This document shows positions 54,927-59,051 of a DNA stretch of 64,000 nucleotides, piece after piece. Source of the DNA: Leptolyngbya sp. FACHB-60 (GTDB lineage: Bacteria > Cyanobacteriota > Cyanobacteriia > Phormidesmidales > Phormidesmidaceae); the NCBI RefSeq assembly GCF_014695775.1, contig NZ_JACJOX010000014.1, positions 1 through 64,000 of the forward strand, in the 5' to 3' direction. Every line of letters begins with the position of its first letter. Position 1 is the first letter of the stretch. The notes under the pieces are model-generated. The model was not told the DNA's origin. It worked only from the letters and a program-made list of their open reading frames with translations, and did no database searches. Position numbers and translations under genes: made by a program.

Positions 54927-54999
54927 GGGGAATTAGCTCAGTTGGTAGAGCGCTGCGATCGCACCGCAGAGGTCAGGAGTTCGAATCTCCTATTCTCCA
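54927..54999 (+). tRNA. tRNA-Ala(CGC)
   Basis: A 73-nt cloverleaf. The acceptor stem is GGGGAAT/ATTCTCC with the alanine identity pair G3-U70. D arm GCTC/GAGC, anticodon stem CTGCG/CGCAG with loop ATCGCAC (T33, anticodon CGC), and T arm AGGAG-TTCGAAT-CTCCT. CCA is not encoded. The anticodon loop contains a HIP1 octamer (54955-54962). It is the attachment gene of the adjacent CAST. Confidence 0.95.
54944..54965 (+). other. CAST target: GTA PAM and protospacer inside tRNA-Ala
   Basis: GGTA at 54944-54947 fits the GTN (NGTN) PAM known for Cas12k. The following bases, GAGCGCTGCGATCGCACC (54948-54965), match the displaced spacer at 17 of 18 positions. The transposon end begins at 55013, 65 bp from the PAM edge, within the 60-66 bp expected for type V-K integration. 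Confidence 0.9.
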
Positions 55000-55012
55000 T
55001 TCTCTCAAACGC

Positions 55013-55134
55013 TGTACGTTCGCACGCTAAATGTCGCGGTTCGCAGATTAGTGTCGTTTTTCGCAGATTAGTGTCGCTTTTGCTTAAATAAGAGATTTAC
55101 ACAGGTGAATATGCTGTTCGCAAGTTAGATGTCG
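55013..55134. mobile_element. Type V-K CAST right end with four TnsB-type sites
   Basis: The element begins with TGTACGTTCGC at 55013, comparable to the TGTAC-type termini of known V-K CASTs. Four repeats of the form TTCGCA-N-(A/T)TTAG/AA-TGTCG follow at 55019-55036, 55040-55056, 55060-55076 and 55117-55134. Spacings of 21 and 20 bp for the first three suit TnsB binding. The 5 bp before it (AACGC) would be the target duplication. No partner copy of these sites with the opposite orientation is seen up to 64000. Confidence 0.88.
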
Positions 55135-55163
55135 TAAACACTCAATTCTGAGTTTCCTCCGCT

Positions 55164-55218
55164 GGTGCAATCGCAGCGCTCCTTTCAACCCTCCCAAAGG
55201 CTCTTGAATGCAGGATCC
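55164..55218 (-). ncRNA. Displaced homing crRNA (atypical repeat plus tRNA-matching spacer)
   Basis: An isolated, degenerate repeat lies between the array and the right end. On minus it keeps TGCAT and ends GGGAGGGTTGAAAG, against GGGTGGGTTGAAAG in the array. The next bases, from 55181 down, are GAGCGCTGCGATTGCACC, matching tRNA-Ala positions 54948-54965 except at base 13; similarity stops after base 18. This is the delocalised, short-match guide by which V-K CASTs home to tRNA genes. Its 5' boundary is approximate. Confidence 0.88.
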
Positions 55219-55235: not shown

Positions 55236-55482
55236 CTCTCATCCACCCATAGCTGGGGAACTGATGCAATGGTCAGCACCGCCCGGCTGCGGTAAGGCTT
55301 TCAACCCACCCATAGCTGGGAGGGCTGATGCAACTGCGGGGCGTGCCCTGAGCGTTGAACCCGTCAAGGATCATCTTTCAACCCACCCATAGCTGGGAGG
55401 GCTGATGCAACAGGGAGTGCGCCGAGCCTACGAGGGCAGGCAATACTTTCAACCCACCCATAGCTGGGAGGGCTGATGCAAC
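55236..55482 (-). CRISPR. Type V-K CRISPR array, 3 intact and 1 degenerate repeat
   Basis: Three identical 37-nt repeats lie at 55446-55482, 55375-55411 and 55298-55334. On minus they start GTTGCATCAGCCC and end ATGGGTGGGTTGAAAG, the V-K type. Spacers are 55412-55445 (34 nt), 55335-55374 (40 nt) and 55271-55297 (27 nt). A fourth, decayed repeat is at about 55236-55270. The array is read in the same direction as cas12k and the tracrRNA. No Cas1/Cas2 adaptation genes are nearby, as is normal for V-K. Spacer origins cannot be told here. Confidence 0.95.
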
Positions 55483-55680
55483 TCCGCAGCGCGTAATCCT
55501 TGCAGGGAAAAGGTTCTAGGCCTTGGTTTGGCAAACCTACTCCCTATGACTTTACTCTGAGTGCTTAGAGATTCCCGAAGAACAACCAAGAATCTCGAAA
55601 ATAGCTTTCAGGCAAGCGTTTCAGGATTTTGGCAAACCCCCTAGGGATTTAACCCTTGCTTGGGTTTGCCAAAGAATATT

Positions 55681-56025
55681 GGGGGAGGGTTCCTCCTTGC
55701 TCGGAGGCGATTCGGTAGCCACCTATCCAGTCTCGCTCTACAACACAAAGGCTGTAAAGGTCCCTGTACCCTCACAATGTGAAGGCTTGACTTCCTTTGC
55801 CGGGTGCGCACCTACGCTATATTACAAAGAGAGAACTCAAGTAAAAATAGCGAACCACCTTTTGTCAGCTTGCTGAACTCAGGCGGCGACTTCAGAGCTT
55901 GTTCAAAGAACAAATTCATTGGAAGCAGACAGCTACCAGGGCCGGAAAGAAAAGCTGTCGTACAACAGCCAAACTGACCCTCATTTTTCACAGTTCAGCG
56001 GCTCAAAAGCATGAACTGCGGCGCT
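55681..56025 (-). ncRNA. Type V-K tracrRNA
   Basis: Downstream of cas12k the minus strand carries blocks like those of the Scytonema hofmannii V-K tracrRNA: AGCGCCGCAGTTCATGCT at the 5' side, ATGAGGGTCAGTTTGGCTGT, CCCTGGTAGCTG, TAGGTGCGCACCC, then GGTGGCTACCGAATCGCC and GGAGGAACCCTCC. AACCCTCC can pair with GGTGGGTT of the repeat. Between the third and fourth blocks there is an extra ~100 nt, making the RNA about 345 nt long, longer than the ~220 nt of the known one. Ends are approximate. Confidence 0.85.
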
Positions 56026-56070
56026 AGAGACTAATTATATTCTCTTTTCAAGGTACAAGGGTTTAACAAC

Positions 56071-58050
56071 CTATTTTGACGCAGACTGGCGACGATAATA
56101 AGCTGAAAAGGCTATATCACGAGCTGTAGCCTGGGGACTATCCGAAACCAGCCCTGGTACAATCTCTACTGGAATACCGAGTTTGGCAGCCCGGTTTTTT
56201 ATCGACTCCGCGAGCTGGTTGTAGCTCCAGTGGTGCAGGCGTAGGCTTGCAGTTCGGGCATAACGTTTTTGAGCGGCGACGGAACCAACAATTTTGCTGG
56301 CCGCTTTCGCTCGCAGTTGAGCCTCAAGCTTATCCCTTAGCCCCTTGGTGTCTGGTAGCACAATGCTTGATACTCGAAATTGGAGGGCGATATCAACGAC
56401 CCGCTTTGCCAGAACTTGATTAAGGTAGGTTCCTAGGTCGTCCTCCTTGTAAGGGGCATAGTTACCCTTTTTAAGGGCTTTGTGGCGCTCATAGTCATGG
56501 TGTTGCTGCTGGGCTTTTTGCCGCCGGAGAAGATGAGACTGATCAGTTTTGGGATCAGACGTTGACAGAAGCTGGCGTGAAGAGTGGTATTTGACAACCT
56601 CTTGAGACTGCACATCGACTACCGCTACGGTGACAGGATGCTTGAGGTCGAAACTAACCCCCAGAATCATTTGAGGTTGGCCTTCGTAAGGGGGGCGACT
56701 GGGCAAAGGAATAGGATGCTGGTCAGGGCACTGGAGACGGGCAAGGTTCCCCTGTCGTCTAGTAGCCTGCGTAGGCGTGGCATGGCGAGTCTGCTCAGAT
56801 GCTTGAGCGCTAGTGAGTTTCTTCTGCCGTTTCTCTTCAACGCCCTCTTGAGTTAAAAGCTGGGTATTAATCTGACAGTGCAGGTAAAGGTAATGATCGT
56901 TCCAAGGTTCTCCTGTAGCTCTACGCCCAGATTGCTGTACGGGCTTCCATAAGATGCTGGCAGTACGCAGCAAGAACAGGCTGCCGGAAATAGGGCCTTT
57001 GCCCCGGTCGTAAATAACCCAGTCCTGTACAAAGCGTTGGAAATAGTGATGCTGCCTAGCATCGCACTGTACTTTAAACACATGCCTACTCGATCCATTG
57101 AACTTGACGCAGATCTGCTGTTTGGGTTTCTGAGACTTTCCCCTAGGCACCTCCTCCACAAACCAAGTTAGGTCAAGATTGCTGCTATATAAAATAGGGT
57201 AAGGCAGGGGATTGGGTTCTCTCAGGAGTTGAGACTTCCATTGGGCAAACTCTTCTGTGCTGGTAGGTATTTGATGAGTTAGCAGTTCTAGGGCATTCAA
57301 AAAGTTCTCATTTGTTAGATCGCGCCCTTTGGGTAGACGGCTTAGGAGTTCTTCTTCCATACGCCTGACTGCAATCTGTTTGGCCAGCAGCATACGCTGA
57401 TAGCGTTCGGGCTGCTCTGCTCGCTCTGGCACTGTACAGCCATTTTTGAGTAGAAGTGCAATAGCGCAGCGATTTAGGGGTTCGGGTAATTCGTCATACA
57501 GATGAAAAAGTCGGTTGACTAGTAGCCGCCGAGATACGACGTTGTCGCTTTGCTCCCGCTGTTGTCCACTACCTCGTCTAACTGGTTGTGGAGTAGGCTG
57601 TTCAGCCTGAATTTGATTTGTTGCTGTCTGTAAAATGGCCTTAGCCCTTTCTTGAAACGATTCCCAAGAGACACCACACAGCTCCAACATTTCGGTGTCA
57701 CTTTGGAGAATGCTTAGCCAGCGTCTCATTCCGTCTAACCGGCGCTGGCGGGAAGCTTGTAAGGCAAACCATGCATCGTAGGTATTAGCCACTATAGTGC
57801 TGGCTGAGCTATAGAAACGGCCTGGCTGACCGATAAATCGTTCATCTTCTTTGAGGGATGCACAGAGATTACAAATTGCCCTACCAGGAATCTTGCCAGC
57901 TTGTCTCCAATTCTCGAAGTCGGGCTGGAGAGGGATAACCTGCATTAATTCTGAAACCAATGGTGTGTTGGAACAAGCCATCAAATTCCAAAAATGTTGC
58001 CGAGTGGCCTCTGAAGCCGTCAACCGACCCTGGATTGTAATAATACCCAT
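56071..58050 (-). CDS. cas12k: Cas12k, nuclease-inactive type V-K effector
   Basis: A 659-residue protein, close in length to ShCas12k (about 640). N-terminal ITIQGRLTASEATRQHFWNLM, LCASLKEDERFIGQPGRFYSSA, RLPKGRDLTNENFL, and GEPWNDHYLYLHCQINTQLLTQEGVEE align with the family. In the RuvC region the usual catalytic Asp is replaced (ILGVSFDLKHPVTVAVVD) and the Glu motif reads SIVLPDTKG, so DNA cleavage is not expected. C-terminal LRLHHWSYNQLAESIKNRAAKLGI is conserved. With tracrRNA and crRNA it marks the target for TnsC/TniQ/TnsB-directed insertion. It appears full length and undamaged. Confidence 0.96.
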   Translation of the reverse strand: MGIITIQGRLTASEATRQHFWNLMACSNTPLVSELMQVIPLQPDFENWRQAGKIPGRAICNLCASLKEDERFIGQPGRFYSSASTIVANTYDAWFALQASRQRRLDGMRRWLSILQSDTEMLELCGVSWESFQERAKAILQTATNQIQAEQPTPQPVRRGSGQQREQSDNVVSRRLLVNRLFHLYDELPEPLNRCAIALLLKNGCTVPERAEQPERYQRMLLAKQIAVRRMEEELLSRLPKGRDLTNENFLNALELLTHQIPTSTEEFAQWKSQLLREPNPLPYPILYSSNLDLTWFVEEVPRGKSQKPKQQICVKFNGSSRHVFKVQCDARQHHYFQRFVQDWVIYDRGKGPISGSLFLLRTASILWKPVQQSGRRATGEPWNDHYLYLHCQINTQLLTQEGVEEKRQKKLTSAQASEQTRHATPTQATRRQGNLARLQCPDQHPIPLPSRPPYEGQPQMILGVSFDLKHPVTVAVVDVQSQEVVKYHSSRQLLSTSDPKTDQSHLLRRQKAQQQHHDYERHKALKKGNYAPYKEDDLGTYLNQVLAKRVVDIALQFRVSSIVLPDTKGLRDKLEAQLRAKAASKIVGSVAAQKRYARTASLRLHHWSYNQLAESIKNRAAKLGIPVEIVPGLVSDSPQATARDIAFSAYYRRQSASK

Positions 58051-58301: not shown

Positions 58302-59051
58302 CTATTCAGGTACGTTGGGTGGCAAAATCTGGTTAGCTTCCCATCGTTGTAAGCGAGTCTGATCCTTTCGCCTTGGATGAATTTGCCAGTTATAGTGGTT
58401 GACAATGTATTTGACAATCTCCTTTTTAAACTCTTCAACAGTAAAGCAGGCGTATTTTTGAGCATCTTTAGAGGGTTTCTGAACATTTGAACATTCATAT
58501 CCAGGAATATGAGATAAAAATTCCTTGTTAAACTTGTCGAATATCGATTCGACTAAACCTCCTTGAGATGGATACGCTCTATGAAGTATCTGGAAGTCAA
58601 GTTCAGTGGCAATCCGTCTTAAGTGTAGAGAATCGAAATCTTTGGCTTGATCTATTATTAAGTATTTTGGGATACCTCTGCAATTCCAATTGTGCTTCAA
58701 ATTGTAATCTGGTCCGTACTGCTTAGGCAAAATTGCGTGGCGCAATGCTAGAGCAAATTCATGTGATTTGGGGTGGCGAAGCCCAAGATGGAAGCCAGCG
58801 ATACAACTCGATGTACATTCAATAATCAGTACTAGGAAAGGATGTCCAATTTCATTGCCATCCTTATCCACCAGAAGCAAGTCCAGGCACGTGTGAGCAG
58901 CTTGGAAAACATCGTTGGTGTGCACGCAGAGTACATTTAGAGTTTTATCACCAAGTTTATCTGGAGTTGGTTGGGACGACAGATCACTCATGACAGAACC
59001 TAAATCAGCAGTTTTGCTGGATTCTACACTAGCTGAACAATTGATTCTCAA
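58302..59051 (-). pseudogene. tnsB: Degenerate tnsB transposase fragment
   Basis: A 249-codon frame matching only the catalytic core of V-K TnsB: LDLLLVDKDGNEIGHPFLVLII, FALALRHAILPKQYG, IDQAKDF, YPSQGGLVESIFDKFN, LPGYECSNVQ, and RYIV-like VKYIVNHYNW...DQTRLQRWEA. The first catalytic Asp is missing: QADHT of active TnsB reads QAAHT. The second Asp and the Glu remain. The N-terminal DNA-binding domains and the C-terminal beta-barrel/TnsC-binding tail (about 300 residues) are absent; it stops after NVPE and the 250 bp to cas12k has only broken frames. It is most likely inactive. Confidence 0.88.

Follow-up and report, generated by a model that had tools for sequence, protein, structure and literature searches.

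The locus described here raises two connected questions: whether an isolated CRISPR repeat lying outside its array carries a guide that directs a type V-K CAST to the tRNA-Ala gene beside it, and how that guide came to differ from the gene at a single base. Homing of type V-K CASTs by a delocalised crRNA was reportedly described by Saito et al. in 2021. Our analysis covered a 64-kb stretch of DNA from Leptolyngbya sp. FACHB-60 (NZ_JACJOX010000014.1, positions 1 to 64,000), hereafter the window, which lies on contig C6 of a 5.9-Mb assembly (G000). The window contains one tRNA gene, tRNA-Ala(CGC), at 54927-54999 on the plus strand (ARAGORN; Rfam RF00005, 67.8 bits). This gene is the attachment site and was left intact by the insertion. 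Thirteen bases past it, at 55013, the transposon begins. Its tRNA-side end (55013-55140, plus strand) starts with TGTACGTTCGCACG..., contains repeated TTCGCA...ATTAGTGTCG motifs and matches the ends of related elements. A first-pass annotation of this DNA had named it the right end; by published naming, however, the tRNA-side end of a V-K CAST is the left end (PMC9938897), and we use that name here.

All other components are encoded on the minus strand, where, reading away from cas12k, the order is cas12k, tracrRNA, array, degenerate repeat, R* and spacer. Cas12k (56071-58050, 659 aa) was recognized over its full length by NCBIfam NF038191 (734 bits; cut-off 150 bits) and aligned along its full length with solved Cas12k chains. 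The tracrRNA region (55600-56070) folds strongly (z -4.6), and its conserved part is 98% identical to that of an element in Phormidium tenue discussed below. Its anti-repeat, AACCCTCCC, lies at 55683-55691, 3′ of the hairpin CTCC-GAGCAA-GGAGG. The array (55298-55482) has three 37-nt repeats, at 55298-55334, 55375-55411 and 55446-55482, and a degenerate fourth repeat is found near 55240-55275. The isolated atypical repeat, R*, occupies 55182-55218, and its core, GGGAGGGTTGAAAG at 55182-55195, forms nine of nine pairs with the anti-repeat. It is followed by the anchor, or homing, spacer GAGCGCTGCGATTGCACC (55164-55181, read 55181-55164). Directly upstream of cas12k is a TnsB remnant of 249 aa (58302-59051), which aligns to residues 196-401 of the 584 of a solved TnsB. 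A Pfam search returned no match for either Cas12k or the TnsB remnant.

The spacer matches a protospacer in the anticodon arm of the tRNA-Ala gene (54948-54965, plus strand), which is preceded by the PAM GTA at 54945-54947, and the distance from PAM to transposon end is exactly 65 bp. As the first-pass annotation had noted, 17 of 18 bases agree; since the stretch paired in Cas12k is 17 nt long (PMC9876797), the relevant figure is 16 of 17. The sole mismatch is at base 13, where the tRNA has C and the guide T (T13). Base 13 corresponds to wobble position 34 of the anticodon, so that the triplet CGC of the tRNA becomes TGC in the guide, and the change breaks the HIP1 octamer in the anticodon loop, also as annotated. 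The earlier statement that guide, PAM and insertion distance fit together exactly is correct for PAM and distance and slightly overstated as a whole because of this mismatch. When the 18-mer was searched with up to three mismatches, the window yielded two sites only, the tRNA and the spacer, against 0.05 expected. Across the whole 5.9-Mb assembly, GAGCGCTGCGATYGCACC likewise occurs only in these two places.

In the published homing mode of V-K CASTs, a truncated repeat (R*) precedes an anchor spacer, usually of 17 nt, whose protospacer lies next to a GTN PAM in the adjacent tRNA gene, with the element end 46-82 nt from the PAM (PMC9938897). The usual spacer length equals that of the RNA-DNA heteroduplex, 17 bp, in the Cas12k transpososome (PMC9876797). 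The window has several features of a V-K CAST (a Cas12k effector, a tracrRNA beside cas12k and an array of 37-nt repeats, in the same order and orientation as elsewhere). It also has those of the delocalised-crRNA type: a separate truncated repeat, a spacer of about 17 nt matching the flanking tRNA gene, a GTN PAM and an end distance, 65 bp, within the published range. It differs from described members in its attachment site, tRNA-Ala(CGC), in the internal mismatch at base 13 and in the TnsB remnant beside cas12k. Its Cas12k is divergent, with 37% identity to the Cas12k of a tRNA-Gly element in the same assembly. Guides of type I-F3 CASTs for their att sites (PMC11406308) are similar in being dedicated to a home site and tolerant of mismatches; those systems differ in using a multi-subunit Cascade effector and other att genes. 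Judged by these features, the window's guide is best classified as a further case of the published delocalised-crRNA ("anchor spacer") homing, a kind already known, which agrees with what had been proposed for it.

A survey of Cas12k loci of the order and class placed the window among many similar elements. Anchor spacers were recovered at more than 50 loci, in CASTs adjoining tRNA-Val, -Thr, -His, -Pro, -Gly, -Arg, -Phe, -Lys, -Asp, -Leu and -Ala. The spacers are 17 nt long in nearly all of these guides, a GTN PAM was seen at every surveyed locus, and the element ends, where recognized, lie 43-65 bp from the PAM. Three CASTs (L020, L108 and L109) have repeats that end in GAAAC, not GAAAG, and target the 3′ part of tRNAs; their PAM reads GTN only when the final C of the repeat is counted as the first base of the spacer. 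In the window's own assembly, ends of further V-K CASTs, each with a perfect anchor spacer, lie at tRNA-Gly(TCC) on contig C44, tRNA-Arg(CCG) on C16/C28 and tRNA-Thr(CGT) on C7, so several CASTs coexist in this genome, one per tRNA. It also contains a Cas12k with three stops at C76:25527-27392. Since the same coordinates, identity and stop counts recur at C47:25527-27392 of G577, a genome of a different family, contig C76 may be assembly cross-contamination.

The mechanism that we propose follows this published mode. A short RNA made of R* and the spacer would be expressed, pair with the tracrRNA and load into nuclease-dead Cas12k, R* being the best fit to the anti-repeat and its loading thereby favoured over that of array crRNAs. 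The loaded Cas12k would be directed to the tRNA-Ala(CGC) gene at the GTA PAM, and integration of the element by TniQ, TnsC and TnsB would follow, 65 bp downstream of the PAM and without damage to the tRNA gene. T13 would be an old substitution in the guide, passed on with the element, and its position in the PAM-distal half of the 17-bp R-loop would explain why it is probably tolerated. We take from the literature (PMC9938897, PMC11406308, PMC9876797) that such guides direct homing and that the R-loop measures 17 bp. We consider it very probable that this explanation, comprising R*-guided homing of Cas12k to tRNA-Ala(CGC), an old, inherited and tolerated T13 and R* as the best-fitting repeat, is correct as a whole. 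The locus would then be a clean and well-bounded example of homing at tRNA-Ala(CGC) with a dated, tolerated mismatch, and a natural gauge of how imperfect a guide may be.

The origin of T13 was approached by comparing tRNA-Ala(CGC) genes of relatives. The first-pass annotation had offered two sources for it, mutation or a host whose tRNA lacks HIP1 at this place. A single-base departure from the resident tRNA and a resemblance to a TGC anticodon, as seen here, would fit a guide captured from, or tuned to, such a foreign host. However, GAGCGCTGCGATNGCACC is present in 42 of the 65 genomes of the order, with C in every tRNA copy; within these 65 genomes the T form is confined to two anchor spacers, those of the window and of P. 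tenue FACHB-1052. None of 385 other cyanobacteria, drawn from across the phylum, contains the T 17-mer (the one hit among 386 is the window's own spacer). A search of about 85,000 species placed the T 18-mer in P. tenue FACHB-1052 and at 14 scattered non-cyanobacterial sites, with none of these occurrences in a tRNA. A copy of T13 from another host's tRNA-Ala is rejected on these counts, and we regard a foreign origin of the guide as highly improbable. The spacer-like sequence was also looked for in CAST-free relatives and was not found there.

The second carrier of T13 dates the change. P. tenue FACHB-1052 (NZ_JACJQN010000006.1) has a CAST at the orthologous site, with the same upstream gene and tRNA, the same 65-bp distance and an identical R* core and guide, T13 included. 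The R* and guide of the two elements are identical at 58 of 58 bases, amid non-coding DNA that has diverged to 87% identity in the left end, 76% in the stretch beside R* and 72% in the leader. Their Cas12k proteins are 85% identical and their array spacers are unrelated. The cas12k genes are under purifying selection (dN/dS 0.29), and their dS (0.28) is close to the 0.39 of the host gene beside the element, which suggests that both species inherited a single old insertion. Because R* and guide are unchanged while the neighbouring DNA has diverged, T13 is neither recent decay nor a copy of a foreign tRNA. It is a mutation of the guide, older than the two species and inherited with the element, and the mutational origin proposed earlier is supported to that extent. 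That no tRNA examined has the T, that T13 is shared with the P. tenue element and that mismatches are common in guides all point to a change that was apparently tolerated.

Mismatches in other guides bear on this tolerance. Of the 37 distinct guide/target pairs compared, 24 match at all 17 bases and the other 13 differ at one or two. The 15 mismatches all fall within bases 7-17, with none in the PAM-proximal bases 1-6, a placement that would have a probability of about 0.002-0.004 over these 37 pairs if mismatches were uniformly placed. Guide mismatches thus seem to be placed where they can be tolerated. Three of the four distinct guides to tRNA-Ala(CGC) carry one change each, at bases 13 (window and P. 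tenue), 14 and 15 (L203 and L172/L202), that is, in the anticodon triplet, and each change breaks HIP1; the chance that all three would fall there is about 0.02, a figure that rests on three cases. This clustering is a hint of selection, not proof of it. A selected mismatch might weaken Cas12k binding and so spare the essential tRNA-Ala from silencing, or might break the self-complementary GCGATCGC of the guide, and the retention of the T13 guide across two species fits such a view. On the other hand, the fourth tRNA-Ala(CGC) guide (L199) is perfect, as are most guides to other targets. Self-dimerisation of the guide is itself a weak reason for breaking HIP1, as 20 of the 33 possible PAM-distal changes would weaken the guide self-duplex anyway. 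Selection for the mismatch is therefore a doubtful reading in our view.

We also considered whether the window's element is still a transposon at all. It could be dead, its guide a drifting relic and T13 a product of decay: the tnsB beside cas12k is a fragment with Ala at the position of the first catalytic Asp, and neither tnsC, tniQ nor intact transposase genes were recognized among the open reading frames of C6 beyond cas12k. However, the conservation of R*, guide and tracrRNA and the selection on cas12k argue against decay, as do the intact tniQ-tnsC-tnsB set (on another contig of P. tenue) and the 5-bp target duplication, TACGC, at both ends of the P. tenue element, whose guide also has T13. 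No TnsB remnant was seen beside the cas12k of that element. The remnant in the window belongs to a TnsB lineage other than that of the P. tenue element, and this, with the intact ortholog, weakens the argument that the element is dead because its tnsB is broken. We therefore think a dead element quite unlikely. The same conservation of cas12k, tracrRNA and guide, with the transposase half not seen on C6, could instead indicate that Cas12k and its guide are kept as a regulator of tRNA-Ala and no longer serve transposition. Since the orthologous element retains intact transposition genes and many other CASTs share the arrangement at diverse tRNAs, such a role appears extremely improbable. An R*-guided homing element with an inherited guide remains our preferred reading.

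Contig C6 carries only the left end of the window's element. Contig C78 of the same assembly has both a complete tniQ-tnsC-tnsB set and a right end. Its TnsB, however, is 68% identical to that of P. tenue, with a dS of 1.36 compared with 0.28 for cas12k (about 1.3 for the gene set), and the sequence just outside the right end on C78 (TTAAATGTCG..., part of a different left end) differs from the window's left flank, AACGC. Given this excess of tnsB and tnsC divergence over that of cas12k, and the mismatch of the flanks, C78 is not established as the other half of the element. No target duplication matching the window's left end was found at the C78 right end; given this and the divergence of the C78 TnsB, the window's copy is no more than possibly autonomous. 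In favour of C78 as the other half, its right flank is similar to the sequence downstream of tRNA-Ala in relatives. From about position 5667 of C78 onward, the right end is followed directly by the left-end piece of another element, lacking the first 13-14 bases, which suggests that CASTs have inserted into one another or recombined here. A weaker partial match to the TnsB remnant lies upstream of cas12k in a related element (G033, L092:9145-9357), and this clade may therefore have carried the remnant for a long time. Past the window on C6 (L007:8387-17317 and L008), the region downstream of the CAST genes encodes a DNA-phosphorothioation-associated methyltransferase (TIGR04096), a DndC-like sulfurtransferase, a large translocase-like protein and a cysteine-desulfurase-like protein; these phosphorothioation-type genes are probable defence cargo.

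Beyond this one locus, the wider pattern linking R* to the tracrRNA matters more. A recent review notes that delocalised repeats only partly match array repeats and describes the origin of delocalised crRNAs as unclear (PMC11656645). In the window, the R* core GGGAGGGTT is fully complementary to the anti-repeat, whereas the array repeat GGGTGGGTT has one mismatch. We extended this comparison to 46 loci (41 distinct combinations), taking as anti-repeat, independently of R*, the 9 nt that begin at the AA/AG after the conserved CYCC...GGRGG hairpin. Over these 9 nt, R* matches the anti-repeat at a mean of 8.10 positions and array repeats at 6.46; R* is the better match in 34 combinations, worse in two and equal in five, counts drawn from loci that are not phylogenetically independent. 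Mean duplex energies with the anti-repeat are -13.4 kcal/mol for R* and -8.7 kcal/mol for array repeats. When anti-repeats were shuffled among loci, the mean R* score was 5.9, with a maximum of 6.7 in 5000 shuffles. The anti-repeats fall into several classes (AACCCTCCC, AACTCGCTC, AATCCACCC, AATCCATGC, AGTCCTCCA and others), and in every class R* changes accordingly. R* therefore covaries with the tracrRNA anti-repeat.

By this fit, the atypical repeat is not a decayed array repeat, and we take the homing crRNA to be the better partner of the tracrRNA. Because R* fits the anti-repeat best, its crRNA should be loaded in preference to array crRNAs, which suggests that homing guides are the ones preferentially loaded. 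Whether this holds for V-K CASTs generally, with R* as the proper, co-evolving partner of the tracrRNA, array repeats keeping at least one mismatch and array guides loaded at a low level, seems to us an evenly balanced matter. If true, it would give these elements a built-in control of pathway choice, a simple mechanism, open to test, by which homing would be chosen over jumps guided by the array, and one that bears on the origin of delocalised crRNAs. It would also be a hint for guide design in V-K genome engineering, where the R* sequence could be used instead of the array repeat. We found the match stated nowhere in the literature searched, which left out Saito 2021 and Hsieh & Peters 2021. 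What is new here is the dated, shared mismatch and, so far as that literature shows, the general match between R* and tracrRNA.

Additional insertions were seen at the same attachment site. Left ends of the same family lie at tRNA-Ala(CGC) in three further loci, L044 (G034), L052 (G042) and L029 (G008), at other distances and with no recognizable anchor spacer nearby, so this site has been used repeatedly. At L037 (G026), the tRNA-Ala gene is followed by a sequence of 33-34 bp with a left-end-like start, a right-end-like finish (TGTACGTTCGCACATTAAATGTGCGAAGGGACA) and CATAC on both sides, which resembles a CAST that has lost all but its ends, now fused. Finally, five loci of relatives (L025, L027, L038, L039 and L050) have a second tRNA-Ala-like copy downstream of the normal gene, whose anticodon arm is lengthened by an insertion of about 25 bases at the GCG|ATCGC octamer in that second copy.
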